This document shows positions 1,714 to 32,788 of a stretch of 64,000 nucleotides of DNA, in pieces (the stretch's first letter is position 1; each line of letters begins with the position of its first letter). The notes under the pieces were generated by a model, which saw only the letters and a program-made list of their open reading frames with translations, had not been told where the DNA came from and did no database searches. Where the stretch lies: positions 21,567 to 85,566 of the forward strand of contig JAFWKK010000037.1 in NCBI GenBank assembly GCA_017514235.1. The letters are read 5' to 3'. The translations under genes were made by a program, and so were the position numbers. Source of the DNA: Kiritimatiellia bacterium. Lineage in GTDB: Bacteria; Verrucomicrobiota; Kiritimatiellia; RFP12; UBA1067.

Positions 1714-1730
1714 AAACCGGAGAACTCCCC

Positions 1731-3371: not shown

Positions 3372-3420
3372 CCCGGCAGACCTGAACCTTGTTCTCTAGA
3401 ACGCTTAGGGGCAAACATCC

Positions 3421-3897
3421 ATGGAACTGAATGAATTGATGTCCGCATTTGCGGAAAAACTCGGTATCGAGGGGATCGCGGTCGAGAACGGCACCTGCTC
3501 CCTAACGATCGACGACATCCCGATGGAATTTACGGAGTCGCCGGACGGTCTTGCCGTGGTGGGCGTCGCCGTCATCGGCGAACCGCCGCCGGAGAAGCGC
3601 GAGGCCTTCTACGAGATGCTTCTGGAGGCGAATACGCAGGTGTACGGGACGCTTGGCGTCGCCTTGTCGAAACTGCCGGACACCGGCGAGATCGCCCTGA
3701 TCGGCGGCCTTCCGTTCAAGGACCTGGAGGTGAAGGAGTTCTGCAAGAGCCTGGACGAGTTCGTCAGCAAGGCCGAGGAATGGCGCGAGACGGTGGAGAA
3801 CTTCCGTCCCGCCGCTGAAGAAGCCGCCGTCCGCGACGAGGAAGCGGCCCAGTTCTTAAGGTTCGGCGGCAACGGCCCCGGCTTCATGAGCGTCTAA
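3421..3897 (+). CDS. CesT/SycE-like type III secretion chaperone
   Basis: A small acidic protein of 158 residues with the layout of class I type III secretion chaperones (Tir chaperone, CesT family). It has an N-terminal helix (MELNELMSAFAEKLG), a central strand pair, the helix EMLLEANTQ, strands ending IGGLPFKDLEVKEF, and a C-terminal helix with FVSKAEEWRETVENFRP. Such proteins bind the N-terminal part of an effector as dimers and keep it secretion-competent. The start has AGGGG about 8 nt upstream. A second copy of this family lies at 21365 and shares MExNEL, IGEPPxE, LLEANxQ, a final AExWR...FRP block and an FGxxGFMxV-like tail. The two upstream proteins are its likely clients. Family assignment is by fold pattern and motif memory; client choice is inferred. 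Confidence 0.8.
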   Translation: MELNELMSAFAEKLGIEGIAVENGTCSLTIDDIPMEFTESPDGLAVVGVAVIGEPPPEKREAFYEMLLEANTQVYGTLGVALSKLPDTGEIALIGGLPFKDLEVKEFCKSLDEFVSKAEEWRETVENFRPAAEEAAVRDEEAAQFLRFGGNGPGFMSV

Positions 3898-5389: not shown

Positions 5390-5401
5390 AGGACAGTGGA
5401 G

Positions 5402-11261: not shown

Positions 11262-11275
11262 AAGGGGGGTGGGAA

Positions 11276-11303
11276 ATGTGGAAATGTGAAAATGTGAAAT
11301 TAC
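11276..11303 (+). repeat. Heptamer-encoded N-terminus of the giant protein
   Basis: The first 28 bases of the giant gene divide into four 7-bp units (ATGTGGA, AATGTGA, AAATGTG, AAATTAC), so the first nine residues (MWKCENVKL) are encoded by the array. It belongs to the same purine-rich class as the array upstream of 8658. Confidence 0.6.
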
Positions 11304-14300
11304 CCAGAACCAATGTGCAGTTGGTTGCCGCCTGCCTGCTTTTGGCCATTTCCGCCAGCTGCGCATTCGCCGAATACGACCTCGGCGAAATGCGGCCGCT
11401 CGACATCTACGACACCGCGACGCCGTCCGAATGGAGCCTGACGAACGCCGCGAGCCTGCTGCTTTCCGGCGGGGCGTTCGTCGCGACGAACAACGCGTCG
11501 GGTCCGCGGCAGATCGACAACAACGGCAACGCGGCGTTCAGTCTCGTGTCGGTCAGGTGCGGAACGCTCGTCTCGCAGCAGAGGCCCGACTTCTCGCTCG
11601 GCGACTGGTGCACTTACCTGCCGACGGACAATCCCGCGGACATCGACTGGGCGAAGACGGGCGAGGAGCTGCTCAAGTCCCAGGCATACAGGGAGGGCCG
11701 GTTCCTCTACAACGCATCCGCGACCAACGACCTCGAGCGCGTGATGTTCACGCGCGGCGGCACGGTCAAGATCAACTGGTACCTCAGGTCCAGGACCGGC
11801 GACGAGAGCGTAGAGCGCACGTACATCGTCGCGTCCACCACGGCGTCGCGTCCGTACCGCATCTTCTGGACTGAGGACGGATTCGACGGCCCCACGGTCT
11901 CGCTCGCCGGGCGCAACGGGCAGGGCTACCGGCACGTGCGGCTCTTCGGCGATCCGTCGATCGTGGCGACAAACGTCCCGGTGAGCGTGCAGCAGTCGAT
12001 GACCAACTTGGTCTCGGGGGTCGTTGTGGACTCCGACTCGCACACCATCCGCGCCTTCGCGAAGCACGACGTGAACCCCGACCGCGGCGAGCACCAGGGT
12101 CCGCGTGGACAGTTCGTCCTCGCGTACTACGACACGGACTCGTTCAGCCGGCTCATATACACAGTCGTAGTCGAAGTCGACGAGCCTGACGTCGCGGTGC
12201 TGGAAGTCGACGTCGGCGACCGCGTTGAGCCGACGGGCGCGGGCTATTCGACCGACAGCATCTCGGCGTTAATAGTCTCCGGCGATGCGGACGATCCCGG
12301 TGACGTCAATTCGCCCTACCTCTACAAGCACACGGGCTTCACGGACTTCAGCCCCAAGACGGGCTACGTCTTCGCGGTCGCCCCGAACGACGCCGCGAAC
12401 ATGGCCTCGGGCAAGGACTCGGCCCACAAGGCGGACATCTACTGGCAGTCGACCGACCCGATGGGCACGTTCTGGCCGTTCGAGCACGACCAGTACCTCA
12501 TCCGCTGGGGCGACGACCTGCCGAAGGTCGTGACGGGCGGATCGGTCTCGCCCGGCTGCGGCATACTGCTCCCGTCCAAGTTCGACGGCGTGACGGCGGT
12601 GGAGCACTTCTCCACGCCGGCGCGCATTGCGAGCGTTTCGTCCAACGCCGTAGTCGTTACCGGCGCGGGCAAGTTCCTGCTGAGGATACTCGCGGACGAC
12701 AACGTGTGGTTCCAGCCGTTCGAGGGCATCCTCAACACCGACACAAACTGGTACGACCGCGTTCCCGGCGAGTGGCACGTCGGAATGGAGCTGAGGCCGC
12801 GGGCCGACGCCGCTGCGGGCAGCGGCGCAAAGATCGCCGACGCGGTAGACGCCACGCTGCCGGGCTACGTCTACGAGGCGGGCTCCCGCGGGCGCAACTG
12901 GAACCCCCGCCTGTACCACGCGCCGCGCGCCAGGACGGCGGCCGAGGATGCGGTCGGCGACACGCAGTCCGCGGCGGACAACGCCGATCCGTACGCGAAA
13001 TTGACGAGCGCGATCTACGCGGTCCGCGCCTCAGAGGAGCCGATCGAGGTATGGTGGTTCCGGTCGGTCCGGCAGGACGACATGCCTGCAGAGATGACGT
13101 TCCCGACGGCTTCGCAGCTCTACCGGGCGATATGGCCGCTTCAGGAGGAGACGCACTCGATCGTCCTCGCGTCGCAGCTCGGCTCAGCCGGCGAATCCCT
13201 GGCGTCCACCGGGCAGGCCCTCTACCTCGCCGACTCGAACTCCGTGGCAGTCGCGGGCGGTCTCACCCTCGGCGGCGAGGCGACGGGCTGGGCGGTCGGA
13301 TTCTGGATCAACCCGTCCCCCCGCGCCGGCGGATGCGAGAGCGTGACGCCGGGTCGGGTGCTGACGCTCACGAACGACGCCGGCTGCGTGACCGTGGAGG
13401 CGACTGGCGCGACGGCGCTCGAAATCGCCGGCGCAACGATAGACATCCCCACGAACGCCTGGACGCACATAACCATCGCCGCGACTACGAACGGCACGCT
13501 GGATGTCTACAGGAACGGCGCGGCGGCGCTTTCGCGTTCCTTTGCCTCCCCCGGCTTCGCCACGAACAGCACGAGGATTGCCGTCGGCGCACAGGTGTTC
13601 GCCGACGCGGAAGGAACCGGGCGTCCTTCGGCCACGGCACTCGGCATTGACCACCTCGCCGTGTGGCCGTTTGCGATCGCCGCGTCCGACATCGCGTCCT
13701 TCATTGCGGGCGGGACGAGCGACGCGGCTGCGCGGCTGCGCTATTCGTGGACGTTCGACGGAGAAGACGACCTCGAGCACATCGGAGGCCTGAACTTCCG
13801 CATCGCCCTGGACGACGCCGGCGGCATGGCTCTCCTCGCCGCAAAGTGCCTCGCGCTCGGACCAGGCGGGCCCGCGAAGTCGAGCGGCGTGTTCAAGACG
13901 GTGGACGGCGTCGAACCGCGCGTCTACTACGTGAACGACTCCTCCGCCGCTGGCTGGAACCCGAACGAGGAACACGCGTTCATCCGCAACGGAATCGCAT
14001 ACGCGCTTCGGTGCGACCTCAACGGCGCCAGATCCTCGGAGCCCTTTGTGCTCGTCGAGTACAACAACGGCGGGAAGGGCGCGATGAAGGCGTTCGACGT
14101 CCAGCTAACCAACGAGGTGTACTCGTCTTTCTCGAGCGACGTCACTGTGGGGAACCTCCTGGCGGGGCCCCATCCGCTCGACTACATCGACGGCTACTAC
14201 AACACGAAGAACTACTGCCTCGAGGCGTCCATGGAATCCGACGCGTACGTCATCTACTGCGACCGCCACAACAGGATGTGGGCGCGTCGCGACGGCACGA

Positions 14301-17300
14301 CGTGGCAGTTCAACCACTATCCGGTCCTGGAGGGCTTCTGGTTCCCGTCGCTGAAGGAGCAGCCCGCGGCCGGCACGCTCGTCGGCTGGCTTTCGTGCCT
14401 TGGAATCGACTCTCCGACCGAGGACAACGTGCTGAACGGCGCCCCGGAGCCATGGAGGTGGAACGCCGTCTGGCCGTCCGACGACAAGATACCCGCTATG
14501 CGCATCGGACAGACGCTCACGACTGCGGAAGCCGGGCTTCCCGAGGTCTGGAACGCGCTCTCGATGGCGGTCGTCTACCCCGTGCCGCGCGACGACGGAA
14601 CGAACCGCGCGGACACGGTCGCGACGCTCATCGACCCGACGGTCGCGCAGACCGCGCCGCTCGCGATCGCGCGCAACTTCGCGGACGAATACGCATTCAC
14701 CGTCGGACCGGCCGGCACATGCCAGCTGAAGAGCGGCAAGTACTACTTCTCGGGACTTCCGCCGAACATCTCGAACCGATTCTACATCGACACCAACGCG
14801 GCGGAGTCCAACCGCATGACGTTCGTCGGGCAGATGGTATCCAAGAAGGCCGGCACGAGCTATCTGCAGATCAACACGCTGTCCGCCGCCGAGCGCCAGG
14901 CGCTGAAGGACATCTGCAAGGCGGTCGGAGACGCGAAGGCAAGGTGGGACGCGGGGGTAGCGGCGCTCGCGCCGCGCGAAGTGCAGCCGTCGCCGCGCCG
15001 CATCGAGAGCGTCGCGATCGTGGTGGACACGACCACGGACGGACTCGTGAACGCGACGACGCCGCGCGTCAAGGTGGACTACGCGCCGAAGAACCACTAT
15101 GCGCTCGTCGCGAACGGATGCGGCACGAACTACGTCACGCTCATCGAGAACGATTCCCCGGACGAGAAGGTCGTGCCGGCGGGCTCCACGATTTCGATGC
15201 ACGTCGTGAAGGTCGTCCCGGAGCTGTACACGGGTCCGCTCGTCGTCCTCGCCGACCCGAACAACAAGCTCTCCGAGCAGCTCAACATACTCTACGCTTC
15301 GCCGCTCGGCGACTCTTCCGACAACTACACGTTCGAGTGGCGCCGGCGCGAGCCCGCATCGGACGGCGTGGTGCCGACGGCCGGCGAGCAGGGCTGGAGC
15401 GTCAAGACGAACGGCGTGGGCGCGACGTCCATCCTCCTCGGCGGCGGAGGGGCGAACCTGACGGAACTCGTCAACACGTACTACGAGATGCGCTACAAGC
15501 CGCTTCCGGGGACAGACCCCTACAAGACGATCGGCGACACGTGGAGCGGATGGTGCGGCCCGACGCTCGCCGAGGGCTGGGTGCAGCGCGTCCTCAACGC
15601 GGTCACGCCGTTCGCGCAGCGCATGAGCGACTTCTACTCCAACGCGGCGGAGATCAACTACACGATGCCCGAGCAGATCGGCGGGCCCTACCGCGGCGAC
15701 GTGGCGCTGAACGACGCGAACCTCAACTCCGTCGGACTCGTAGAACTGTACCAGACAGTCCTTAACAAGGCCGAGTCGCTTTCGCTCGCGCTCGGGATAA
15801 ACGACCCGAACGCCAACAAGCAGCTCATGGAGGCCGCCTCGCGCCTTGCGGACCTCTACATGCTCCTCGGCGACGACGCGTATTCCGACGCTGTGAACCC
15901 GACTATCGAGACGTCCTCCACGGACACGCGCATCAGCGACTACGCGACGTTCCCCGCCTCGACATACTGCTTCGCGAACCAGGTGCCGTCGCTCCTCGAC
16001 GAGGAGCTCGCGCTCCTCAGGGGACGCACCCGGGCCGTTGCGCCGAACATGACGACGTATCCGTACTACAACCGCCTCATGTGGAACTTCACGAAGGGCA
16101 TCACGCAAGGCGAGATGGCCTACGTGCAGAACTACGCCATCGCCGGGTCCGGCGGGGAGATAACCCCCGAGCAGGCGGCCGCGCGCTATCCGATGGGGCA
16201 CGGAGACGCATACGGACACTACCTCTCCGCCGTGTGGGGCTACTACCGCCTTCTCAGGAACCCGCACTTCGAGTGGGGCGACCCGTCGATGATGGAGATG
16301 CTTGTCGCGGACTCGATAGTGAACATGGACTACGAGGACGAGCAGAAGTTCGCGATGGCGGCGGCAAAGATGGCGCAGGCCGGCGCTGACGTAGTCGACC
16401 TCACGGCGCGCAAGACTTGGCGCGACCAGGGCGGCGTAACCGGCGCGGGTTATTTCGACGCCGACGGAGAGCAGGGCTTCGGATACGGCGAGTGGGCCGT
16501 CCGCTCGGGGCTTGGTGCCTTCTATAACTGGGCTGCGGTGAACTCCCTCGTCCCGGTTGACGCTGCCTCGGCCACCAACCGCTTCGCCGACGCGTCGATA
16601 AAGGACATAACGCGCGAGACGATCCCCGCGCTCCGGCTTCTCGCGGAGAACTTCGCGGCGGTGGACGCGAAGGTGAACCGCCTCGACGCCGGCATGAACC
16701 CGATGGGGCTTTCCGACAACGCCATTCCGTTCGACATCGACCCCGCCCGCGTCGCCTCGGGAACGGCCTCGCACTTCGAGCAGATACTAGAGCGCGCGGA
16801 GCGAGCCCTCGACAACGCAAAGACTGTCCTGGACTACGCCGACAAGTTCGGCGCGCGCATCCGCCAGATCGAGGAAGCCGAGGCGGACGACGCGGATTCC
16901 CTTGAGGAATTCGAGGCCGCGTTCAAGAAGGACCTCATAGCCGTCTACGGCACGCCGTATCCCGACGACATCGGTCCCAGCGGAACATACGCGCAGGGCT
17001 ATGACGGACCTGACCTCTACCACTACAACTACATAGACGTGTCGCAGTACGGAATCGAGGAGTTGAAGACGTCGATCTCCACCAGCATCACGGTGTATGC
17101 GGAACTTGACGCGGACTGGCTGAACGTCAAGCCGGGCGCGGACTTCGACTATGCGATTCCCATCACCTACAACGTCGCGTCCGGCGGAGTCGTAGTCAAG
17201 CCTGCCGAGTGGTCGAGCGTCCGCCTAACCGAAGGGTCGATACAGTCCGCCTACCGCGACTTCATCGAGGCGTACGCGCTCGTCCAGCAGAAGATCAAGC

Positions 17301-19027
17301 TCTACCTCAACGAGCTCGACCACCAGCAACTTCTGGACCAGTACCTGCCCCAGAAGTGGACCAACTCCAACATCATGTGGCACATGCAGCAGGCGATCAA
17401 CGCCTTCAAGATCATCAACGAGGCGGTCAAGGCGACGACGGAAATCGTAATCGCCGTCGCGGAGACGGCGGCTAGCACATCCAAGATCGTCGCCGACACC
17501 GCTGACGGGTCCATACCCTGGATCGTGGCCGGCATGGCGGTGGGCGGCAACCCCGCGCAGGCGGTTGCCAATGCCGCGATGGGGTCCGTCCACCTTGGCG
17601 TCAAGACCGCGGCGGACACGACGTCGCGCGGAGCGAAGATAACCCAGCAGGTCGCCGAAAGCGTCGTGAACGTGATTTCGTCGTCGTTCGACGTCGAGGC
17701 GGCGGCGCAGGACCGATACAACACCAAGGCCGAGATCCGCGAGGCGCTCTGCGACTCGATGGGCGTGATTGAGGAGGCTGCGTTCGAGATACAGAACGCG
17801 TACGCCGCGCTTGCGGCGGCGGAGGCCTCCTACCGTGCGGAGGTCGAGAAGGGGCAACAGCTTCTCGCCGAGCGCGAGATGATGCGCCGCCACCAGTCCA
17901 ACACGGCGACTGCGCGCCGCTACCAGGACATGTACTACCGCGTCCAGAGGAACGCCGCGCTCTCCAAGTTCAACACGTCCTTCGACGTCGCGCAGCGCTA
18001 CGTGTGGCAGCTCGCGAAGGTATACGACTACGAGACAGGGCTCGTCTCGTCCGACAGGCAGGCCGGCGACGCGTTCCTGCGCGAAATCGTCGCGACGCGC
18101 GCGCTCGGCGAGAAGGGCGTGAGCGTCGTCGCGGACGGAACGGACGGGGGGCTCTGGGACATCGTGAGCCGCATGAAGGGCAACTGGGAGGTCCTCAAGG
18201 GACGGCTCGGAGTCAACAATCCGGATGTCTCGACGAAGTGGTTCTCGCTCAGGTACTCGCTCTTCCGCATCGACCCCGGCGCCAAGGGGGACGCGGCATG
18301 GCGCCAGGAGCTCGCCAAGTACGCGGTGCGCGACATATTCGCCGATCCGGAGGTCCTGCGCTACTGCCAGAGGCCGCAGGGATCGTCCATTCCGCTCGGC
18401 GAGCCCGGCTTTGTCATACCATTCTCGACGACGATCAACCTGGCGGAGAACTTCTTCGGGAGACCCCTCCTCGGAGGCGAGACGACATTCTCGTCCAGCG
18501 ACTACGCGGTCAAGATCAACTCCGTCGGCGTTTCCTTCGCGGGCTACGATCGCTTGACCGTTCAGTCCGCCGACGGACTTTCCGTAGAGCCGAACATATA
18601 CCTCGTGCCCGTCGGTTCTGACTACATGCGCGCCCCGACCGAGACGGGCCGCGAGACCATCGCCTTCAAGGTCGTCGACCAGGTGCTGCCTCTGCCGTAT
18701 GCAGTGGGGGCGGCGGAACTCGGAGACGAAGACTGGCTCGCAACGTTCTCCGGCCTCGACGGCACGGTGGATTCGACGGCGACGATCCGCCGCCACTCCA
18801 CCCTGCGCATGGGCGCGGAGACGACGTCGAGCCGCCTTGTCGGGCGGTCGGTGTGGAACGACCGGTGGCTGCTGGTCATTCCGGCGAGTTCGCTTTCGAG
18901 CGAACGCACGAACGCCCTCAAGACGTTCGTCAGCGGACTCGACTCCGACAAGGACGGGCAGATCGACATCCCCGGCGTCTCCGACATCAAGATCGGCTTC
19001 CGCGCCTACTCCCGCAGCGGGAACTAG
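11276..19027 (+). CDS. Giant exported protein (2583 residues) with LamG-like domain
   Basis: The start at 11276 follows a long G-rich Shine-Dalgarno (GGGGGGTGGGAA) and gives a signal peptide ending SASCAFA. Residues about 650-815 form a concanavalin/LamG-like domain (WAVGFWINP, AWTHITIAATTNGTLDVYRNG, IDHLAVWPFA). The middle (about 1400-1900) is mixed, with tetratricopeptide-like helices around LMEAASRLADLYMLLGD. Residues about 1975-2275 are strongly helical, with Ala-rich hydrophobic stretches followed by YVWQLAKVYDYETGL, faintly reminiscent of the helical pore-forming part of Tc-type toxins; I would not assign that family on this evidence. The C-terminus is a beta domain. It closes a six-gene operon of exported proteins and is probably the main surface component. 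Function unknown. Confidence 0.85.
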   Translation: MWKCENVKLPRTNVQLVAACLLLAISASCAFAEYDLGEMRPLDIYDTATPSEWSLTNAASLLLSGGAFVATNNASGPRQIDNNGNAAFSLVSVRCGTLVSQQRPDFSLGDWCTYLPTDNPADIDWAKTGEELLKSQAYREGRFLYNASATNDLERVMFTRGGTVKINWYLRSRTGDESVERTYIVASTTASRPYRIFWTEDGFDGPTVSLAGRNGQGYRHVRLFGDPSIVATNVPVSVQQSMTNLVSGVVVDSDSHTIRAFAKHDVNPDRGEHQGPRGQFVLAYYDTDSFSRLIYTVVVEVDEPDVAVLEVDVGDRVEPTGAGYSTDSISALIVSGDADDPGDVNSPYLYKHTGFTDFSPKTGYVFAVAPNDAANMASGKDSAHKADIYWQSTDPMGTFWPFEHDQYLIRWGDDLPKVVTGGSVSPGCGILLPSKFDGVTAVEHFSTPARIASVSSNAVVVTGAGKFLLRILADDNVWFQPFEGILNTDTNWYDRVPGEWHVGMELRPRADAAAGSGAKIADAVDATLPGYVYEAGSRGRNWNPRLYHAPRARTAAEDAVGDTQSAADNADPYAKLTSAIYAVRASEEPIEVWWFRSVRQDDMPAEMTFPTASQLYRAIWPLQEETHSIVLASQLGSAGESLASTGQALYLADSNSVAVAGGLTLGGEATGWAVGFWINPSPRAGGCESVTPGRVLTLTNDAGCVTVEATGATALEIAGATIDIPTNAWTHITIAATTNGTLDVYRNGAAALSRSFASPGFATNSTRIAVGAQVFADAEGTGRPSATALGIDHLAVWPFAIAASDIASFIAGGTSDAAARLRYSWTFDGEDDLEHIGGLNFRIALDDAGGMALLAAKCLALGPGGPAKSSGVFKTVDGVEPRVYYVNDSSAAGWNPNEEHAFIRNGIAYALRCDLNGARSSEPFVLVEYNNGGKGAMKAFDVQLTNEVYSSFSSDVTVGNLLAGPHPLDYIDGYYNTKNYCLEASMESDAYVIYCDRHNRMWARRDGTTWQFNHYPVLEGFWFPSLKEQPAAGTLVGWLSCLGIDSPTEDNVLNGAPEPWRWNAVWPSDDKIPAMRIGQTLTTAEAGLPEVWNALSMAVVYPVPRDDGTNRADTVATLIDPTVAQTAPLAIARNFADEYAFTVGPAGTCQLKSGKYYFSGLPPNISNRFYIDTNAAESNRMTFVGQMVSKKAGTSYLQINTLSAAERQALKDICKAVGDAKARWDAGVAALAPREVQPSPRRIESVAIVVDTTTDGLVNATTPRVKVDYAPKNHYALVANGCGTNYVTLIENDSPDEKVVPAGSTISMHVVKVVPELYTGPLVVLADPNNKLSEQLNILYASPLGDSSDNYTFEWRRREPASDGVVPTAGEQGWSVKTNGVGATSILLGGGGANLTELVNTYYEMRYKPLPGTDPYKTIGDTWSGWCGPTLAEGWVQRVLNAVTPFAQRMSDFYSNAAEINYTMPEQIGGPYRGDVALNDANLNSVGLVELYQTVLNKAESLSLALGINDPNANKQLMEAASRLADLYMLLGDDAYSDAVNPTIETSSTDTRISDYATFPASTYCFANQVPSLLDEELALLRGRTRAVAPNMTTYPYYNRLMWNFTKGITQGEMAYVQNYAIAGSGGEITPEQAAARYPMGHGDAYGHYLSAVWGYYRLLRNPHFEWGDPSMMEMLVADSIVNMDYEDEQKFAMAAAKMAQAGADVVDLTARKTWRDQGGVTGAGYFDADGEQGFGYGEWAVRSGLGAFYNWAAVNSLVPVDAASATNRFADASIKDITRETIPALRLLAENFAAVDAKVNRLDAGMNPMGLSDNAIPFDIDPARVASGTASHFEQILERAERALDNAKTVLDYADKFGARIRQIEEAEADDADSLEEFEAAFKKDLIAVYGTPYPDDIGPSGTYAQGYDGPDLYHYNYIDVSQYGIEELKTSISTSITVYAELDADWLNVKPGADFDYAIPITYNVASGGVVVKPAEWSSVRLTEGSIQSAYRDFIEAYALVQQKIKLYLNELDHQQLLDQYLPQKWTNSNIMWHMQQAINAFKIINEAVKATTEIVIAVAETAASTSKIVADTADGSIPWIVAGMAVGGNPAQAVANAAMGSVHLGVKTAADTTSRGAKITQQVAESVVNVISSSFDVEAAAQDRYNTKAEIREALCDSMGVIEEAAFEIQNAYAALAAAEASYRAEVEKGQQLLAEREMMRRHQSNTATARRYQDMYYRVQRNAALSKFNTSFDVAQRYVWQLAKVYDYETGLVSSDRQAGDAFLREIVATRALGEKGVSVVADGTDGGLWDIVSRMKGNWEVLKGRLGVNNPDVSTKWFSLRYSLFRIDPGAKGDAAWRQELAKYAVRDIFADPEVLRYCQRPQGSSIPLGEPGFVIPFSTTINLAENFFGRPLLGGETTFSSSDYAVKINSVGVSFAGYDRLTVQSADGLSVEPNIYLVPVGSDYMRAPTETGRETIAFKVVDQVLPLPYAVGAAELGDEDWLATFSGLDGTVDSTATIRRHSTLRMGAETTSSRLVGRSVWNDRWLLVIPASSLSSERTNALKTFVSGLDSDKDGQIDIPGVSDIKIGFRAYSRSGN

Positions 19028-19099: not shown

Positions 19100-19105
19100 T
19101 ATAAT
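19100..19105 (+). promoter_or_regulatory. Extended -10 promoter of the partner-switching cassette
   Basis: TATAAT preceded by TG (ATGGTATAAT). No good -35 hexamer is visible at the expected distance. The start codon at 19141 leaves a leader of about 30 nt. Confidence 0.65.
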
Positions 19106-19140: not shown

Positions 19141-20793
19141 ATGTCTACGAGAGCAAATTCTGCGCGATTGAAGACGCGTTCGGTCGAGCGAATCAACTTT
19201 GCGGTTGTCGCCGTCACGGCGACGCTCTTCCTGGCCATCGCGGCATTCGTCGCGTTCAGCACGTCGAAGATGATGGAGGACGAGGCGCGCAGCACGGTCG
19301 AGAACGTCGTGAAGGCGACGGTCGGCCGCATCGACCGCCAGATGGCGTCGGTCGAGAGCGCGGTCGAGAATTCGGCCTGGATCGTCGCGGAGCATCTCTC
19401 CGATCCAGACTACATGTTCAGGATCACTGGCGAGCTCGTGCAGAACAACCCGTTCATCGTCGGCAGCACGGTCGCATTCGAGCCGAACTTCTTCCCGTCA
19501 AAGGGATACTACTACTCCGCCTTTTCCTGCAAGGACGCAAAGGGCGGAATCAAGCGCATCCAGCAGGGCGGCGAGGCGTTTAAGTACCATGACATGGAGT
19601 GGTACCGCATCCCGAAGGAATCGAGGAAGCCTTCGTGGTGCGAGCCATATTTTGACGAGGGCGGCGCGGAGGTGATGATGTGCACATATTCCGTCCCGCT
19701 GATAAATCGCGCCGGGAATGTCTACGCCGTGCTCACTGCAGACATCTCGCTCGAAGACCTGACGCACCACGTGGCGGCGATCAAGCCGTACCCGGACTCC
19801 CATGCCGTTCTTTTCTCGCAGAGCGGCAAGCAGCTCGTCGGCGCCCCCGTAGATGCAGCGCCGGCGAGCGACACGGTGACGATAGCCGGAAAGACCAGCA
19901 ACGGCTGGACGGTGGAGCTCGTCTGCCCCCTGGCCAACATACTGCAGGGCGCGCGCAGGCTCGTCCGACGGATCGCGTTGTTTTCGGTTGTCGGCCTGGG
20001 GCTCATCTTCTTCGTCTCGTGGTCCTTCTCGACGAGGCTGCAGCGCGCGACGGCGGCAAACGAGCGGCTCAGCAGCGAGCTGGGCATCGCACGGAATATC
20101 CAGTCGAGCGTGCTGAAACGCAAGGCGCCGCCGTACCTCGGAACCATGCTTTGTCCCGCTCGGGAGGTAGGAGGGGACTTCTACGACTTTCAGGAGAAGG
20201 ACGGCCTGCTCTATTTTGCGGTGGGTGACGCATCGGGCAAGGGCATCCCCGCGGCTCTGTTCACTTTTCTGGCGTGCGCGGGTTTCCGCATGGCGGCGGA
20301 CATGGGGCTCCCGCCTGACGAGATCGTCGCCCGCATCAACGCGCTTCTCTGCAGGGACAACGACGCGTGCATGTTCGTGACGCTTTTCGTGGGTCGCCTT
20401 GACCTGTCATCCGGGCGGCTGGAGTATTGCAACGCGGGGCATACGCCGCTCGTCGTCGTGGAGCCTGGAGGCGGCGCGGAGTTCTTCGCTGCGAAGAGCA
20501 ACGTCGTCGCCGGGGTCATGGACGGATATGCGTATGCGATGCAGGAGACGACGTTCGAGCCTGGCACGATGCTGCTGGCCTATACGGACGGCGTCACCGA
20601 GGCCGAACGGACCGACCACGAGCAGTACGGGAACAAGAGGCTGCTGGCGTTCGCGTCCGTGCATGCAAAGGATGCGCCGGCCAGCTTCGTCGAGAACTTG
20701 GAGCGGGATCTTGACGCCTTCACGGCGGGTGCGGAACAGTCCGACGACATCACGGCCCTTGCCGTCCTCGTCGACGGCGGGCAAAAGGCTTAA
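19141..20793 (+). CDS. Membrane RsbU-like PP2C (SpoIIE) phosphatase with extracytoplasmic sensor
   Basis: A 550-residue two-pass membrane protein. TM1 is about residues 19-41, the extracytoplasmic region 42-275 has a Cache-like sensor pattern (WIVAEHLSD, VAFEPNFFP, EPYFDEGG, YSVPLINRAGNVYAVLTADISLEDL), and TM2 is about 276-296. The cytoplasmic part is a SpoIIE-type phosphatase: AREVGGDFYDF (near 343), VGDASGKGIPAALF (near 362), YCNAGHTPL, YTDGVTEAE (near 481) and SDDITALAV (near 534). The metal-binding aspartates are present. RsbU-type enzymes dephosphorylate a STAS antagonist and so release a sigma factor or other target; the STAS gene lies at 21966. Its stop overlaps the start of the next gene (TAATG), implying translational coupling. 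The sensed ligand is unknown. Confidence 0.9.
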   Translation: MSTRANSARLKTRSVERINFAVVAVTATLFLAIAAFVAFSTSKMMEDEARSTVENVVKATVGRIDRQMASVESAVENSAWIVAEHLSDPDYMFRITGELVQNNPFIVGSTVAFEPNFFPSKGYYYSAFSCKDAKGGIKRIQQGGEAFKYHDMEWYRIPKESRKPSWCEPYFDEGGAEVMMCTYSVPLINRAGNVYAVLTADISLEDLTHHVAAIKPYPDSHAVLFSQSGKQLVGAPVDAAPASDTVTIAGKTSNGWTVELVCPLANILQGARRLVRRIALFSVVGLGLIFFVSWSFSTRLQRATAANERLSSELGIARNIQSSVLKRKAPPYLGTMLCPAREVGGDFYDFQEKDGLLYFAVGDASGKGIPAALFTFLACAGFRMAADMGLPPDEIVARINALLCRDNDACMFVTLFVGRLDLSSGRLEYCNAGHTPLVVVEPGGGAEFFAAKSNVVAGVMDGYAYAMQETTFEPGTMLLAYTDGVTEAERTDHEQYGNKRLLAFASVHAKDAPASFVENLERDLDAFTAGAEQSDDITALAVLVDGGQKA

Positions 20794-21245
20794 TGGAAGT
20801 GCTAATCATTGCAGCATTGATCATTGGGGGGTACACGAACCACGCAGGGAATGTGATTGCGGGGTGGCCGGTCAAGCTTACGGCGACGCAGGTCGTGTTG
20901 GCGGAGCGCGCCACACCAGCCACTAACGACTATCGACTATCGACGGCCTACCCGCTCTCTATTTTCCCCGAATCGGAGCAGCGTCGCATCGCGGCGGACT
21001 ATCTCCTTCGCCAAGGCGGCGGACAGGTTGACTTGCTGCGCGTGCCGGTTGCCGTGAAGCGTGCGATCGCCGGGGCGGAAAAGGCGATGGCGCGTTCGCG
21101 CAAGCGTGCGGAGAAGGGGCTTTGCACGAAGGAGGAGAGCGAGGCCTTCTGCAAGAAGTCGGAGTCCGCACTAAAGATCTACCTCGACAAGCAAGTCGAG
21201 TCGGGAGCGATCACCCCCGCCGAACGAAAGGCCCTTGGACGCTGA
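20793..21245 (+). CDS. PLSIFPESEQRR-family protein, paralogue of the gene at 5402
   Basis: The ATG overlaps the phosphatase stop by one base. The 150-residue product starts with a short hydrophobic segment (MEVLIIAALIIGG) instead of the full signal peptide of the paralogue at 5402, so export is less certain. It shares YTNHAGN, AGWPVKLT, YPLSIFPESEQRRIAAD, KAMARSRKRAEKGLCTKEES and TPAERKAL with that protein. At the point where the paralogue has 12 heptamers, this gene has four units (20921-20948). The coupling to an RsbU-like gene here, and the position near a CesT-like chaperone in both loci, suggest a link to secretion or its regulation. The family is unknown to me. Confidence 0.8.
   Translation: MEVLIIAALIIGGYTNHAGNVIAGWPVKLTATQVVLAERATPATNDYRLSTAYPLSIFPESEQRRIAADYLLRQGGGQVDLLRVPVAVKRAIAGAEKAMARSRKRAEKGLCTKEESEAFCKKSESALKIYLDKQVESGAITPAERKALGR
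20921..20948 (+). repeat. Four-unit heptamer array inside the paralogue
   Basis: CACTAAC, GACTATC, GACTATC, GACGGCC run without interruption just before the codons for YPLSIF. The position corresponds to the 12-unit array of the paralogue at 5561-5644, although the unit sequence differs. Confidence 0.75.
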
Positions 21246-21318
21246 ATTCCCGTCGCCAAGTTTGATCCCCCTAATCCCGAACCATCCGGGCAAGCCGCTG
21301 GAACGGAAATTTTTTTGG

Positions 21319-21324
21319 TATAAT
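21319..21324 (+). promoter_or_regulatory. Extended -10 promoter of the second chaperone gene
   Basis: TATAAT preceded by a T-run and TGG (TTTGGTATAAT). No clear -35. The start at 21365 leaves a leader of about 35 nt containing AAGGAG (21356-21361). Confidence 0.65.
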
Positions 21325-21364
21325 ATCAGCAACTGATGCGAATTGCATAGTGTCAAGGAGCAAT

Positions 21365-21811
21365 ATGGAATTCAACGAACTAATCGCCGACTTCGCAACT
21401 CGCCACAAGGTTGAGAACCTCGTGGCCGTTGATGCCGCCGCCGCGCTCGACATCGACGGAATCGTCGTCACAATAGTCGCCAAGGAGGATGTGCTTAACA
21501 TTTCAGCTGACATCGGGGAACCGCCTGCCGAAGGAGCTTCCTCGTTCGCCGAGCTGCTGCTTGAGGCGAACATGCAGTCTGGCGCGTTTTTTGCCAAGGC
21601 ACCAGACCCCGGGCCATATATCGTCGTGCGGCGGCTTTCGCTGCAGCAGATCGACTCGGCCGCCTTCGACGCTGCCCTCGAAGACTTAGTCAACCTGGCT
21701 GAGACATGGCGCCGTCTTCTTGCCGACTTCCGTCCGATCGCCAAGGCCGCCGCAGAACGTGTCGAAGCGGATAGCCCGTCATTCGGATCCTCCGGCTTCA
21801 TGCAGGTGTAG
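21365..21811 (+). CDS. Second CesT-like type III secretion chaperone
   Basis: ATG 21365 has AAGGAG just upstream; an earlier in-frame ATG at 21350 lacks one. The 148-residue protein follows the same class I chaperone plan as the gene at 3421: MEFNELIADFA helix, two strands, IGEPPAE, FAELLLEANMQSG helix, RRLSLQQIDSAAFDAAL, and the C-terminal LVNLAETWRRLLADFRP helix, ending FGSSGFMQV. It is embedded in a partner-switching cassette, between an RsbU-like phosphatase and a STAS antagonist. No effector-like gene is adjacent, so its client is elsewhere, or it acts as a regulatory chaperone that reports secretion status. Assignment is by motif pattern; a general YbjN-like chaperone fold is the alternative. 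Confidence 0.75.
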   Translation: MEFNELIADFATRHKVENLVAVDAAAALDIDGIVVTIVAKEDVLNISADIGEPPAEGASSFAELLLEANMQSGAFFAKAPDPGPYIVVRRLSLQQIDSAAFDAALEDLVNLAETWRRLLADFRPIAKAAAERVEADSPSFGSSGFMQV

Positions 21812-21946
21812 CGTTCCGTCGCGTGGTGTCTAGACGTGACGGAAACACGAATAAAAGCCATGTCTTTGCCGAATGACATCGCAAACATAGACTTCGGTCT
21901 TCTGTATGCACGCATGCTCACCACGACGTAACGTGTCTGAAGATGA

Positions 21947-21952
21947 TATAAT
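21947..21952 (+). promoter_or_regulatory. -10 element upstream of the STAS gene
   Basis: TATAAT preceded by TG at 21944-21945 (ATGATATAAT). The start at 21966 is 13 nt beyond it, leaving a very short leader with GGAG at 21955-21958 as the possible ribosome binding site. Confidence 0.6.
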
Positions 21953-21965
21953 ATGGAGCAGTAAA

Positions 21966-22265
21966 ATGAACATAGACAAAAAGCTTGACAACGGATGCCT
22001 CACGCTCAAAGTTGAAGGTCGCCTTGACACAAACACCTCGCCAGAACTGGAGGCGGAGCTGAATTTCGACGGCGTGACGGAGACTGTGTTCGACTTCTCC
22101 GGGCTCGAGTACATCTCGTCTGCTGGGCTCCGCGTCCTGATGGCGGCGCACAAGGCGATGGCTGCGTGCGGTGGCAAGATGTCCGTGGCAAGCCCCAACG
22201 CCATAGTGAAGGGCGTGTTCGACATAACCGGCATGAACAACGTGTTCAACATCGTCGAAGGCTGA
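21966..22265 (+). CDS. STAS-domain anti-sigma factor antagonist (RsbV/SpoIIAA-like)
   Basis: A 99-residue single-domain protein: MNIDKKLDNGCLTLKVEGRLD, then ELNFDGVTETVFDFSGLEYISSAGLRVLMAAHKAM. The phosphorylatable serine is within YISSAGLR, the usual site in SpoIIAA/RsbV proteins. In the known mechanism, the antagonist in its unphosphorylated form binds the RsbW-type kinase and frees the kinase's target; RsbU-type phosphatases regenerate it. Candidate phosphatases are on both sides (19141 and 22288), and the kinase domain is fused to the second. The start at 21966 is preferred over the upstream in-frame ATG at 21906 because the promoter at 21947 lies between them. No sigma factor gene is visible in the window. 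Confidence 0.92.
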   Translation: MNIDKKLDNGCLTLKVEGRLDTNTSPELEAELNFDGVTETVFDFSGLEYISSAGLRVLMAAHKAMAACGGKMSVASPNAIVKGVFDITGMNNVFNIVEG

Positions 22266-22287
22266 GGGGCTGGAGTCGAAGGTTGTG

Positions 22288-24393
22288 ATGAATAGGCGCA
22301 TCGTCATATTCGGCGGCACTGTTGCGCTTTACGTTGCCGTCATGGCCGTCACCTGGATTGTCGGGACGGATCAGGCGGAACGGAAAACCGAGGCCATGCT
22401 GGACTATGCCGTTAGCGACATGCGCATTACGCTGGACGGCGTGATCGACACGATGCTGGAGCATCTGGCGTCCATGGCCGTGCGCCATTTCAAGAAGCCT
22501 GACGCGTATTCGGTTGAGGATGTCTCCGCCCTTGCCGCGGCCTACGACATCGACGAGATCAATGTCGTCGACCGCGCGGGGCGCATCATCGCCACGAACG
22601 ATCCCGACTGCCTCGGCGTCGACATGAACGTGAAGAGCGCGACTCGTTCTTTTGCAGAATTGACAAACGGCGTGACGAGAGTCGTCTCGCAGCCGTTCCG
22701 CCGCCATGCGTACGGAACTTCGCGCCGCAAGTACCTTGGCGTGCCGTTCCCGAACGGGGACGGGTATGTCCAGATAGGGCTTGACGAGTCGCGCATTGAC
22801 AAAATGATCTCCTTGCAGCTCGCCTTTCTCTTCGACGCGGAGGTTAAGGATACGACGTGCTACCTCTGCGCGAACGAGAAAACGGGCGCGCTCGTTTCGT
22901 CGCAGCTTGAGCGCGACATGCCGCAGACGCTCAAAGAAATCGGTTTTGACGCAAACATGGTTCCGAAGTCCGACAAGCCGCTGTCGGACGGGGGCGGGGT
23001 AGAGACCGACAAGACGTTCGCGCTGACGTTGTCCGGACGGCGTGCCTTCTGCCGCAGTTTTGTCGTCGGCGGGCATCGTTTCATCATGGTCGAACCCGAA
23101 GACGAGTTCTATGGCACCCGCAACATGATTGCGGCTACGATGGCCTTGCTCCTGTTCCTGGTCCTCGGCGGTTTTGCGCTTTTCCTTGACCGGATCTTCC
23201 GCGACGCAGACAGGCTGAGGGCCTTCTATCGTGCCGAGGACGAGGCAAGGGCGAAGGACATGGAGATAGCGAAGACAATCCAGACGTCGGCATTGCCGGT
23301 TCCGCTTGGCTACAACCCATGTTTCCGTATGTCGGCGTCCATGGCCCCGGCGAGGGACGTCGGAGGAGACTTCTACGACTTCTTCATGCTCGACCAGACG
23401 CATCTCGCATTCATGGTCGCCGACGTGAGCGGCAAGGGTGTCACAGCCGCACTCTACATGATGACGGCGAAGACGCTGCTTAAGGACGCCATTCTTGCGG
23501 TCCGCGACCCGGCCGCTGCCTTTGCACGAGTGAACGCGGAGCTTTGCAGGAACAATACTGCCAACATGTTCCTCACGGCGTGGGGAGGAGTGCTCAATCT
23601 GGAAACGGGACAGGTGACTTTTGCCAATGCAGGGCACAATCCGCCCCTAAAGGTCGAAGGTCGAGCGGCAGAAGGGCGAAAATCTGGGTTCGTTACAGAC
23701 AAGTCTGGACCGGTCCTGGCTTTTGCGGACGGCATCGAGTACAAGTCGCATACGCTTTCGCTGAACCCTGGCGACACGCTGTTCCTCTACACGGATGGCG
23801 TGACGGAGGCGCTTGACGGCAAGAACGAGCTTTTCGGCGAGGAACGGCTGCTGAACGCAATAGATGCCGTAGTGGAGCCGAATCCCAAGGCGTTCTGCAA
23901 TGTCGTGCGCATGGCCGTCGCCGCGTTTGCCGAGGGCGTTCCACAGGCGGACGATCTGACGGTTCTTGCGGTAGAGTACGTTTCGCGCCCGCAGCGGTTC
24001 GTGAACTCGTTCATTCCCACGCAGGGTGGCATAGCGGCGGCTTCGGCATTCCTGGATGAATGTTTTGGGAGGCTTGAAGGAGTGAAAACTTCCTGCCTTC
24101 CCGTTCTTCACGTCATTCTGGACGAGATATGCTCGAATATCGTCAAGCACTCCGGGGCGTCTTTTTTTGAGATGGGCGTTGAGTTGCTCGCGGAATCTGG
24201 CGGCGTCAAGTTGACATTTGCTGATGACGGCGTGCCGTACGACCCATTGTCGCACGAAGATCCCGACACGTCTCTTCCTGCGGACAAGCGCCCGATCGGG
24301 GGCCTTGGCATCATGATGGTCAGGAAGATGGCCGATTCGATGAGCTACGCACGGACGCGCGACCGCAACTTCCTTACAGTCGTCAAGCAATAA
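22288..24393 (+). CDS. RsbU-type phosphatase fused to RsbW-like HATPase kinase domain
   Basis: A 701-residue protein starting 22 bp after the STAS gene. TM1 is about 5-25, an extracytoplasmic sensor region about 26-275 contains INVVDRAGRIIATN and QIGLDESRID (Cache-like), and TM2 is about 280-302. The SpoIIE phosphatase follows with VGGDFYDF (near 357), VADVSGKGV (near 377), FANAGHNPPL, LYTDGVTEALD and ADDLTVLAV. The C-terminal 95 residues are an RsbW/SpoIIAB-type HATPase: LDEICSNIVKHSG (near 611), FADDGVPYDP and GGLGIMMVRKM. Kinase and phosphatase for one antagonist are thus on one polypeptide. An AAGGTCG heptamer pair lies in the phosphatase codons at 23650-23663. Output target unknown. Confidence 0.9.
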   Translation: MNRRIVIFGGTVALYVAVMAVTWIVGTDQAERKTEAMLDYAVSDMRITLDGVIDTMLEHLASMAVRHFKKPDAYSVEDVSALAAAYDIDEINVVDRAGRIIATNDPDCLGVDMNVKSATRSFAELTNGVTRVVSQPFRRHAYGTSRRKYLGVPFPNGDGYVQIGLDESRIDKMISLQLAFLFDAEVKDTTCYLCANEKTGALVSSQLERDMPQTLKEIGFDANMVPKSDKPLSDGGGVETDKTFALTLSGRRAFCRSFVVGGHRFIMVEPEDEFYGTRNMIAATMALLLFLVLGGFALFLDRIFRDADRLRAFYRAEDEARAKDMEIAKTIQTSALPVPLGYNPCFRMSASMAPARDVGGDFYDFFMLDQTHLAFMVADVSGKGVTAALYMMTAKTLLKDAILAVRDPAAAFARVNAELCRNNTANMFLTAWGGVLNLETGQVTFANAGHNPPLKVEGRAAEGRKSGFVTDKSGPVLAFADGIEYKSHTLSLNPGDTLFLYTDGVTEALDGKNELFGEERLLNAIDAVVEPNPKAFCNVVRMAVAAFAEGVPQADDLTVLAVEYVSRPQRFVNSFIPTQGGIAAASAFLDECFGRLEGVKTSCLPVLHVILDEICSNIVKHSGASFFEMGVELLAESGGVKLTFADDGVPYDPLSHEDPDTSLPADKRPIGGLGIMMVRKMADSMSYARTRDRNFLTVVKQ

Positions 24394-30989: not shown

Positions 30990-31673
30990 ATGGATCAGAT
31001 TAGGATCAAGGCGGAGGCGCGTGCGGAGCAAGGCACGGCTGCTGTCCGTCGGTTGCGCCGTGCGGGAATGATTCCCGGCTCGGTGATGAAGATGAAGAAG
31101 GGGGGCACGGAACTCATAAAGTGCCCTGCCCATGACTTCATGATGGCTATGCGCGGCAGGACTGGCAAGCAGCTCCTCGTCACGCTGGACATGGGTGGCA
31201 GGGAGGTTTCGGCCCTGTTGCGCGAGCTCCAGAACGACGTTCTGGCCGGTACGCCGATACATGTCGACTTCAGCGAGGTCTCGCTGTCGGAGAAGGTGCG
31301 CGTTACGGTTCCGCTGAATCTCGTCGGCGAGCCTACGGGCGTGAAGCTCGGAGGCGGCGTCCTCGAGCAGGTTCTGCGCACGGTCGACGTCGAGTGCCTG
31401 CCCATGGACATAGTCGAGAAGTTCGACGTTGATGTTACGGCGCTTGGCCTGGACCAGACGATGTTCGTCCGTGACCTGAAGCTCGGCGACAAGTTCACGG
31501 TCGTCACCCGCGGCGAGTTCGCCGTGGCGGTGGTCAAGGCGCCTGACGACGCGCCTGCTGCCGCGGGCGGTGCGGCGGAGCCTGCTGCCGCGGCGGCCCC
31601 CGAGGTGATCAAGAAGGGGAAGGAAGAGGAGCCGGCGTCGGGTGACGCCAAGAAGAAGGAGGAGAAGAAGTGA
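30990..31673 (+). CDS. rplY: 50S ribosomal protein L25 (CTC-type)
   Basis: A 227-residue protein of the long bacterial L25/general-stress CTC type, which binds 5S rRNA. The N-terminal RNA-binding domain (IKAEARAEQGTAAVRRLRRAG ends near 25, with the PGSV segment) is followed by the C-terminal TL5 domain (VPLNLVGEPTGVKLGGGVLEQ) and a charged Ala/Lys/Glu-rich tail from about 185 on. The long tail is typical of this form. AAAAGG upstream of ATG 30990 serves as ribosome binding site. First gene of a five-gene operon; its stop overlaps the rpsF start (TGATG). Confidence 0.95.
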   Translation: MDQIRIKAEARAEQGTAAVRRLRRAGMIPGSVMKMKKGGTELIKCPAHDFMMAMRGRTGKQLLVTLDMGGREVSALLRELQNDVLAGTPIHVDFSEVSLSEKVRVTVPLNLVGEPTGVKLGGGVLEQVLRTVDVECLPMDIVEKFDVDVTALGLDQTMFVRDLKLGDKFTVVTRGEFAVAVVKAPDDAPAAAGGAAEPAAAAAPEVIKKGKEEEPASGDAKKKEEKK

Positions 31674-32080
31674 TGAAGAAATACGACGCCCTCTACATCT
31701 TCGTCGGAATCAACAAGGACGATGCGCTCGAGGCGAGCCTCGAGAAGGCGCTGGCGGAAGTGACGCGTCTCGGCGGCAACATCCTGGAGAAGGTCTCTCT
31801 CGGAAAGCGCGGGTTTTCCCGTCCGATGCGCAAGCGCGAGAACGGGGTCTACGTGAAGGTCCGCTTCGAGTTCGATCCTCTTCTCGTGGGAGACCTCGTG
31901 AAGCGCTACCGGCTCGTCGAAGACGTGTTCCGCGTGCAGATACTCGCCGTCGACGAGCGCCGCGAGTCGAAGATTGCCCAAGAGCGCGCAGAGCGCGCCG
32001 AAGAGCAGTCCAGGCGCGATGCCGCCGCAGCGGCAGCCCTTGCCGCGAAGACGGTGGAGGCTGACGAGGTCGAGGCATAG
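31673..32080 (+). CDS. rpsF: 30S ribosomal protein S6
   Basis: The ATG at 31673 overlaps the rplY stop by one base (TGATG), with GGAGAAGAAG upstream; GTG 31670 is a less likely start. The 135-residue product has the S6 fold sequence (KKYDALYIFVG, EVTRLGGNILEKVSLGKRGFSRPM, YVKVRFEFDP, DVFRVQILAVDE) and an Ala/Glu-rich C-terminal extension of about 35 residues. S6 binds S18 in the small-subunit platform, and rpsR lies two genes downstream. Conserved gene order supports the assignment. Confidence 0.97.
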   Translation: MKKYDALYIFVGINKDDALEASLEKALAEVTRLGGNILEKVSLGKRGFSRPMRKRENGVYVKVRFEFDPLLVGDLVKRYRLVEDVFRVQILAVDERRESKIAQERAERAEEQSRRDAAAAAALAAKTVEADEVEA

Positions 32081-32097
32081 GAAGGCGAGGTGCCGAC

Positions 32098-32511
32098 ATG
32101 GCGTCTTTCAACAAGGTGATCCTGATGGGCAACCTGACGCGCGACCCCGACGTCCGCGCGACAGGGCCGAGCGGCATGCGCGTCGCCCGGCTTGGCCTGG
32201 CGATCAACGAGCGCCGCCGCGATCGCAGCGGTCAGATGCAGGACTTTCCGGTGTTCATCGACGTGGACGCGTGGGATCGGCTGGCTGAGCTTTGCGGCCA
32301 GTATCTCACGAAGGGCAGTTCAGTGCTCGTCGAAGGGCGGCTTCAGATGGACACGTGGGAAAAGGACGGCGTCCGGCACCAGAAGCTCAAGGTCCGCGCT
32401 TCGACCGTCAAGTTCCTGCCGAAGGGAGAGCGCGCAGCTGGCGCGCCCATCCGCCCGGCGGGTCCGGTCGCGGCCGTGCCTGAAGGCGAGTCCGACGACA
32501 TACCGTTCTAA
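32098..32511 (+). CDS. ssb: Single-stranded DNA-binding protein
   Basis: A 137-residue OB-fold protein with the standard SSB sequence: FNKVILMGNLTRDPDVR, GMRVARLGLAINE, FPVFIDVDAWDRLAELC, KGSSVLVEGRLQMDTWEKDG and the acidic C-terminal tip ESDDIPF, which recruits replication and repair partners. Length is slightly below the E. coli form because the Gly-rich linker is short. The rpsF-ssb-rpsR order is a widely conserved operon arrangement in bacteria. Confidence 0.97.
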   Translation: MASFNKVILMGNLTRDPDVRATGPSGMRVARLGLAINERRRDRSGQMQDFPVFIDVDAWDRLAELCGQYLTKGSSVLVEGRLQMDTWEKDGVRHQKLKVRASTVKFLPKGERAAGAPIRPAGPVAAVPEGESDDIPF

Positions 32512-32542
32512 ATCAACTTAAACACACTCAAGGAATCGAACA

Positions 32543-32773
32543 ATGGTCTTCAAGAAATCAAACAGCTCGGCCGGCGAGGAGTTCGCCGCGAGGAAGCGTC
32601 CGCCGCTCCGGCCCACCGACCAGATCGACGTCAACGACATCGAGACGCTCAAGTATTATGTCACGGATTACGGGAAGATCCTGCCCGCGCGCATCACCGG
32701 CGTCACCAGCGCCCAGCAGCGCCAGATCCGTCAGGGCGTCAAGCGCGCCCGCAACATGGGCCTCATGGCCTGA
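32543..32773 (+). CDS. rpsR: 30S ribosomal protein S18
   Basis: A 76-residue basic protein with the S18 core: KRPPLRPTDQIDVNDIETLKYYV, TDYGKILPARITGVTSAQQRQIRQGVKRARNMGLM is recognisable in its usual order (positions 18-75). Partner of S6 in the 30S platform. It lies 31 bp after ssb and 15 bp before rplI, with CAAGGAAT upstream of its ATG. Confidence 0.96.
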   Translation: MVFKKSNSSAGEEFAARKRPPLRPTDQIDVNDIETLKYYVTDYGKILPARITGVTSAQQRQIRQGVKRARNMGLMA

Positions 32774-32788
32774 GGAAGGAGCGTTGCA

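Follow-up and report, generated by a model that had tools for sequence, protein, structure and literature searches.

A putative partner switch associated with type III secretion genes in an uncultured Kiritimatiellia bacterium

Why should a secretion chaperone gene stand among the genes of a regulatory partner switch? The question is raised by five consecutive plus-strand genes, here called P1 to P5, on a 64-kb stretch of DNA (the window) taken out of an 85.6-kb contig (JAFWKK010000037.1) of a Kiritimatiellia bacterium, whose assembly (GCA_017514235.1, 3.96 Mb) is 92% complete. A preliminary description of the window had named an RsbU-like sensor phosphatase (P1), a CesT-like chaperone (P3), a STAS antagonist (P4) and an RsbU-RsbW fusion (P5) as neighbours, and had proposed that secretion activity is sensed and fed into the switch, with the chaperone as the reporter molecule. 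The neighbours are as described, each gene being an open frame at its place (Table 1), and Pfam searches and structure models agree with the assignments. Our analysis supports the view that P4 and P5, the STAS-P5 core, belong with type III secretion, and it provides a candidate extracytoplasmic function (ECF) sigma factor on which they may act.

P4 matches SpoIIAA structures and carries at residues 51-55 an SSAGL motif of the phosphoserine type, within which lies the serine that we take to be phosphorylated. P5 consists of a sensor of ~250 residues between two membrane segments, followed by a SpoIIE phosphatase domain (residues 371-564) and an RsbW/SpoIIAB-type kinase domain (residues 583-701). 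The best match of its structure model is the RsbU-RsbW part of Rv1364c of Mycobacterium tuberculosis (3ke6, E 5e-20), which it also matches in sequence and in which a phosphatase is likewise joined to an RsbW-type kinase domain; unlike Rv1364c, which is not known to have a secretion link, P5 includes a membrane sensor, and its STAS partner is a protein apart. The phosphatase residues D362, D380, D504, D556 and D557, presumably metal-binding, and the kinase-domain residues E614, N618, D647, G649, G672, G673 and G675 are invariant in 19 aligned fusions, and P5 carries what are, judged from sequence, the catalytic motifs for both the kinase and the phosphatase reactions. The parts of an Rsb-type partner switch, namely a STAS protein with a serine motif, a SpoIIE/PP2C phosphatase and an RsbW/SpoIIAB-type HATPase, are all found in this pair. 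In such switches the kinase holds either the sigma factor or unphosphorylated STAS, and the phosphatase frees STAS to draw the kinase off the sigma factor (PMC8256260, in part).

The family profile and the fold of P3, together with the presence of a non-flagellar secretion system in the genome, bear out the proposal that it is a secretion chaperone of the CesT, or class I, type. Its AlphaFold model (predicted local distance difference test score 80.8, built with four sequences) matched 48 chains in the PDB at E<=0.001, mostly class I secretion chaperones and a few of the YbjN type, and the best match was ExsC (3kxy, E 6.7e-7). An unrelated, YbjN-like identity was ruled out, the YbjN structures ranking below ExsC and other secretion chaperones in a genome that has a secretion system. 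Profile searches of the contigs identified in that system a secretin with an SPI-1 N0 domain, SctU, one FHIPEP/SctV-type gene and, above cut-off, an SctI-type HrpB2 match whose gene adjoins an SctJ-type gene; SctD-type and needle-type matches were under their cut-offs. The host genome has 11 CesT matches, every one above the Pfam cut-off. Large proteins adjoin many of the CesT genes that were read, and several of them have similar N-termini (MAINL..LNISLDxF); "effector-like" is used here as a putative label for genes whose products resemble, or which lie beside, such proteins. The labels SctQ, SctL, SBP and RND are likewise our own, given from sequence and gene order, and a custom script served to call genes beyond the window.

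Comparison was made across 59 genomes, the window's own included (genomes, contigs and loci are designated G, C and L, respectively). In searches with P5, full-length matches (E<1e-170) came from 16 loci of 15 genomes. The exceptions to an immediately upstream STAS gene are a locus with two genes between (G047), one in which a small secretion-cluster gene takes the place of STAS (G022) and one at a contig end. P1 orthologs (83-85% identity) occur in five of the 59 genomes and adjoin STAS-P5 in the window only, being distant in the other four, and the relatives of P3 also lie elsewhere. Since STAS immediately precedes P5 in 13 of the 16 loci, whereas P1 is absent from most genomes and apart elsewhere, what is conserved is the STAS-P5 pair and not the set of five; P1 falls outside the conserved core. 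Conservation of gene order, the test on which the preliminary description had staked its proposal, thus holds for the core and fails for the five-gene order, and P1-P5 as one conserved cassette is rejected.

The proposed tie between the partner switch and type III secretion was recovered by two sampling routes. In six of the 16 P5 loci a secretion-type gene flanks STAS-P5: CesT (the window, G012 and G035), SctU (G007), an effector-like gene (G040) and, in G022, the small secretion-cluster gene, which has the ECF-type promoter and ends 11 bases ahead of P5. A re-screen of the loci with Sct, sigma factor and small-gene queries left this count at six of 16. The binomial probability is 8e-5 for six of 16 and 6e-4 for five of 15 without the window, at a background of 5% (the backgrounds of 2-5% are assumed values). 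Within the window's own genome, the linkage of switch and secretion genes is via the chaperone only.

The second route started from the sigma factor. A candidate for the cognate sigma factor that the preliminary description had sought is L025_04, encoded on contig C66 between SctU and a CesT-effector pair; it has Pfam regions 2 and 4 and matches ECF structures. Among loci sampled by this sigma factor at a level of at least 50% identity, five of 22 hold STAS in the same stretch (G248, G274, G215, G142 and G009). The 22 include nine hand-picked relatives out of 23 genomes (G030 was already known to have STAS on its contig) and 12 from a phylum-wide search, and the count leaves aside G082, G275 and G293 (<50% identity), a divergent second copy in G244, and the sigma factor surroundings in G047, G051, G195 and G308. 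Four of the 12 loci fetched purely for the sigma factor hold STAS. A P5-type gene immediately follows STAS in G248, G274 and G215. In G248 a single run comprises SctN, SctQ, R, S, T, U, the sigma factor, the promoter described below, a small gene, STAS and P5, and in G274 the run is SctQ, R, S, T, U, sigma factor, promoter, small gene, effector-like gene, CesT, effector-like gene, CesT, STAS and P5. In G215, of the same phylum and another class, SctT and SctU are separated by STAS and a P5-like fusion (34% identity). STAS stands behind an effector-like gene and one further gene in G142, followed by chaperone-type genes, and behind two CesT genes in G009, where the contig then ends; in G030, the contig with the sigma factor also has STAS and a sister-type fusion, at a distance of ~16 kb.

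The sigma factor and SctU (E<1e-100) occur in the same 23 of the 59 genomes and lie within 540 bp of each other in 20 of them; the sigma factor gene of G015, overlooked by the gene-calling script, was detected by a separate search, and G027 has a sigma factor fragment with a stop. A draw of 288 genomes across the phylum gave the sigma factor in 22. Of 22 near-complete genomes, the same nine have CesT, SctU, the sigma factor, promoter matches and a kinase-domain fusion, and the other 13 have none of them (Fisher 2e-6, a value that ignores kinship and is hence too small); positives and negatives both occur within families f1, f4 and f6. Full-length P5 orthologs are found in five of these nine genomes (G000, G012, G033, G047 and G051), the other four (G008, G017, G038 and G049) having the sister-type fusion only. 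Across the 59 genomes, CesT and P5 matches occur together in 21, CesT alone in four and P5 alone in five.

A repeated element, GTAACM-N15-TGTA, lies upstream of effector-like genes. The strict pattern was derived from ~15 sites and then counted genome-wide against a reversed control: the 23 SctU genomes contain 148 strict sites (zero in G015 and G023) and the other 36 contain 12, while the reversed control gave eight in all 59. Nine of these 12 are in G006, G027 and G040, all of which have CesT. In the host genome, every one of the 13 strict sites precedes an effector-like, chaperone or secretion-cluster gene by 19-217 bp, the gene behind the site on contig C44 being classed by its relatives, which in G305 and G015 stand in runs on the contig that holds the sigma factor. 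In G012, G040, G274, G248, G022 and G030 the switch makes up the distal part of a run of same-strand genes that begins with this promoter. We infer that L025_04 reads this GTAACC-type promoter. The run on C44 (L215 1-6000; relatives L208, L224 and L245) is operon-like with the ECF promoter inside it, and possibly represents translocator or tip genes.

Taken together, these findings make it moderately probable that P4 and P5 are the partner switch of the type III secretion regulon and gate the ECF sigma factor L025_04. With no signal, the kinase domain of P5 would phosphorylate P4 and remain free to keep L025_04 inactive, P5 being the putative anti-sigma factor. A periplasmic signal, acting by way of P5 or of another phosphatase (P1, for instance), would cause the phosphatase domain to dephosphorylate P4, and the dephosphorylated P4 would then occupy the kinase domain and the sigma factor would be released. 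The released sigma factor would transcribe effector-chaperone genes from the promoter GTAACCTT-N10-GCGTGTA. In this scheme P3 would be found where it is because the switch sits among effector-chaperone genes, its neighbouring effector having probably been lost. The direction of signalling in this scheme is putative.

A number of observations weigh against this reading. That the target of P5 would be the ECF sigma factor is read from gene order and co-occurrence only, and kinship confounds the co-occurrence, as stated. Nine of the 16 P5 loci are without a flanking secretion gene and one is cut by its contig, and in 17 of the 22 sigma factor loci the stretch holds no STAS; some of these 17 are at contig ends. 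P5 matches occur without CesT in G013, G018, G021, G024 and G043; those of G018 and G043 cover the phosphatase part only, and G043, which is without CesT or SctU, has unfused STAS, kinase-like and phosphatase genes. Conversely, CesT occurs without P5 in G009 (the contig ending after STAS), G015, G027 and G029. A matrix scan found no good copy of the ECF promoter for P4-P5 in the window, the matrix having been built from sites in the studied loci and not being independent of them. Other kinases exist in the host genome, because it has 13 HATPase_c_2 matches, nine of them above cut-off. Finally, in Bordetella BtrU, BtrV and BtrW are not negative regulators, and their mechanism is given as unknown in the relevant part of a 2020 review (PMC7498569).

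Alternatively, STAS-P5 might be a general partner switch that serves some other sigma factor or pathway, the secretion genes being near it through the mobility of effector islands. Homologous fusions are widespread, and among 80 fusion loci in named genomes, mostly of other phyla, only L098 matches host CesT, Sct, sigma factor or effector-like proteins (BLAST 1e-4; all 80 loci were compared with the query set, and L096, L097, L098 and L159 were read gene by gene); further fusion subfamilies are also present in the genomes studied here, and the P5 loci lacking a secretion neighbour point the same way. Nevertheless, we regard such an accident of neighbourhood as distinctly unlikely, for the linkage appears under two sampling routes, in other families and in another class, and with different secretion genes. 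Moreover, a sister fusion subfamily of the same genomes (L080-L085, L087 and L088), found mostly beside a solute-binding-like protein and a protein of ~565 residues, has a secretion neighbour in none of its eight loci, although three of seven other sister-type loci (L073, L075 and L077; not L074, L076, L078 or L079) have CesT or effector-like neighbours. As a separate observation, in G033 a large transporter-like gene stands upstream of STAS-P5 (L058 5703-11238), and the host genome has a relative of this gene upstream of a CesT-effector pair (L026 7359-10925), so that the switch and the effector pair may have used the same site.

The closest known counterpart is the Btr system of Bordetella. 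As described in parts of PMC7498569 and PMC10732220, its secretion regulon likewise has an ECF sigma factor, its partner-switch proteins are connected with secretion, and it includes CesT chaperones as well as a chaperone-effector pair that is remote from the apparatus but under the same sigma factor; btrS sits in a btr locus (PMC7498569, in part). Here, an ECF sigma factor is encoded with the secretion system and the switch genes are linked to secretion genes. The systems differ in that BtrU and BtrW are separate proteins whereas phosphatase and kinase are fused in the membrane sensor P5, in the distant phylum of the present host, and in that some relatives have STAS-P5 within the run of apparatus genes. 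BtrS is paired with an anti-sigma factor of its own, the secreted BtrA (PMC7498569, in part); no BtrA homolog was identified here, no search having been aimed at one. This likeness also suggests that the switch might govern the secretion process or protein stability instead of the sigma factor. BtrU, BtrV and BtrW are all required for secretion, none being a negative regulator and the mechanism being described as unknown (PMC7498569 and PMC8256260, in part), and STAS-P5 is no less linked to apparatus genes than to the sigma factor. We consider control of this kind rather unlikely: no recognised anti-sigma gene adjoins the ECF sigma factor in the loci that were read, albeit without a systematic search, and in G248 STAS-P5 stands directly behind the sigma factor and the small gene. 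A further comparison is with RsbU/RsbV/RsbW of Chlamydia, which belongs to a related superphylum and has a secretion system (PMC11619594, in part); this partner switch differs in having separate proteins and other sigma factors. In the literature on Kiritimatiellota and Planctomycetes-Verrucomicrobia-Chlamydiae bacteria, judged by titles and the starts of abstracts, no description of the present system was found.

The small gene, which encodes ~90 residues, bears on whether the sigma factor has a further partner. By similarity it adjoins the sigma factor in 19 of 22 loci (after it in 18, before it in one), often with an ECF promoter at the end of the sigma factor gene, and in an alignment of 21 rows, one of them included by position, its N-terminus is variable and its C-terminus strongly conserved. 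The protein has no Pfam match. It was tried as SctI and rejected as such, since another gene, the one adjoining the SctJ-type gene, matches SctI profiles. It is a candidate secreted regulator, and a secreted anti-sigma factor would fit its place, size and promoter. A closed circuit can be imagined in which this protein, usually under the sigma factor's own promoter, is a secreted FlgM/BtrA-like anti-sigma factor and P5/P4 a second gate; transcription would then require both an outside signal and an open injectisome. We think this elaboration unlikely. Besides the copy on its C60, G244 carries another ECF sigma factor gene (L254 8565-9101), which is divergent and lies between SctN and SctR.

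We return to the chaperone and to the suggestion that it reports on secretion. Free P3, released when its effector is secreted, would in that case bind P4 or P5, following a logic like that of ExsC in Pseudomonas aeruginosa, the best fold match of P3. ExsC is itself a regulator, and in the ExsC-ExsE-ExsD-ExsA cascade the chaperone gives secretion-coupled control; that cascade, unlike the present genes, controls an AraC-type activator and is not known to involve STAS, PP2C or RsbW proteins. CesT lies directly upstream of STAS in six genomes, with a gap of 30-44 bp in five. The CesT chaperone BP2265 of Bordetella binds the anti-sigma factor BtrA, whose chaperone it is (PMC10732220, in part). The tree of the chaperones speaks against such a role. 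Over 45 rows of CesT sequences, the STAS-adjacent chaperones occupy six separate places (six label changes for six rows; shuffled mean 5.8), and a dedicated reporter chaperone is therefore unlikely; an earlier comparison confined to the P3 clade, with 29 of the 45 rows excluded, had given one change, and the 45-row result is the one used. One chaperone family paired conservedly with its regulator, as in the ExsC type, was thus not found. The P3 clade itself has 11 rows. Relatives of P3 lie away from STAS in G002, G008, G012, G019, G038, G049 and G051, and adjoin effector-like genes in G008, G019, G038 and G049 and in a paralog pair on contig C29; those of at least 50% identity are directly beside STAS in the window only, and at least two genes off in G030 and RUG12612. 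P3 and P4, ~155 bp apart, are also apparently under separate promoters. Among the explanations considered, that of P3 as reporter appears very doubtful to us, and a dedicated regulator chaperone is disfavoured on the same tree.

P3 looks instead like an ordinary client-specific effector chaperone without its effector, no effector gene adjoining it at the window locus. Across the end of P3 lies the best ECF-type site of the window, which scores 9.9 bits against a median of 34 for strict sites, the ten strand maxima from five shuffled windows being 1.6-10.2. This remnant rises above chance only because of its register at the stop codon: in four of 30 CesT genes (L023_00, L023_05, L026_03 and L077_08), the ECF promoter of the next effector-like gene starts four bases before the end of the stop codon. 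The simplest reading, drawn from this one weak site, is that an effector gene between P3 and P4 has probably been lost.

The five genes probably form three transcription units, P1-P2, P3 and P4-P5, and not one cassette, because of their spacing and because P1, P3 and P4 are each preceded by a TATAAT of their own with TG ahead of it. A generic sigma-70 scan was uninformative (four sites against 1.8 in shuffles) and did not report these three sites. The STAS gene of the window has TATAAT near upstream and is without a good ECF site; within 100 bp of 18 other STAS genes, TATAAT is found for three (G007, G033 and G017), a one-letter variant for six and neither for nine. P2, of 150 residues, has no Pfam or NCBIfam match at E<=1. 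It shares a YTNHAGN..AGWPVK stretch with the open frame at 5396-5914, and each of the two is at most two genes from a CesT gene.

Table 1. Positions and supporting evidence of the features discussed (window coordinates unless a locus is named)
Feature	Position	Strand	Evidence or remark
P1, PDC/dCache-type membrane sensor with SpoIIE-type PP2C phosphatase	19141..20793	+	Pfam, SpoIIE E 6e-48
P2, 150-residue protein, start overlaps P1 stop	20793..21245	+	Open frame; absent from the preliminary description
P3, CesT-type secretion chaperone	21365..21811	+	Pfam 43.7 bits (cut-off 22), E 3e-11; fold match
P4, STAS anti-sigma-factor antagonist, RsbV/SpoIIAA type	21966..22265	+	Pfam STAS E 2e-14; TIGR00377 above cut-off
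P5, sensor/phosphatase/kinase fusion	22285/22288-24393	+	SpoIIE E 7e-48; HATPase_c_2 E 7e-16
TATAAT preceded by TG, sigma-70-like	19100-19105 (P1); 21319..21324 (P3); 21947-21952 (P4)	+	Read from sequence
Weak ECF-promoter copy, probably decayed	21808..21838	+	Best-scoring site in window, both strands; score within chance reach
Second CesT chaperone of window	3421..3897	+	Behind effector-like genes 1-1668 and 1731-3371
~90-residue gene	L025 7716-7976; homologs L061, L216-L219, L221-L223, L225, L240-L242, L244, L248-L253		Beside ECF sigma factor

Elsewhere in the window, the region 1-3897 (L021), with the end of an effector-like gene, a large protein and the second CesT gene, is the tail of an effector-chaperone run that starts outside the window. 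An open frame of 2621 residues (11162-19027) lies immediately upstream of P1, the region 31673-33256 resembles a ribosomal S6 - single-strand-binding protein - S18 - L9 cluster (judged by eye from translation starts), and two small minus-strand genes at 41525-42177 resemble, also by eye, a toxin-antitoxin pair. Some of the P5-type matches among named genomes carry the names Kiritimatiellae and Victivallales and come from rumen samples, from which we infer that the source of the window is a gut relative of these rumen bacteria.

The arrangement described here points to Btr-like control in which one membrane sensor combines phosphatase and kinase; in some relatives this sensor is encoded close to an ECF sigma factor dedicated to the system. 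For an injectisome that has been little studied, in uncultured bacteria that probably live in the gut, this yields a candidate sigma factor, a promoter that marks its regulon in many genomes and a candidate sensor, and the promoter offers a route to listing effector candidates in genomes without known ones. A second, distant system in which STAS and kinase genes stand behind an ECF sigma factor also makes the question of the Btr mechanism, open according to the part of PMC7498569 that treats it, a testable one. For the bacteria themselves, the switch probably decides when the proteins of the secretion machine are produced.

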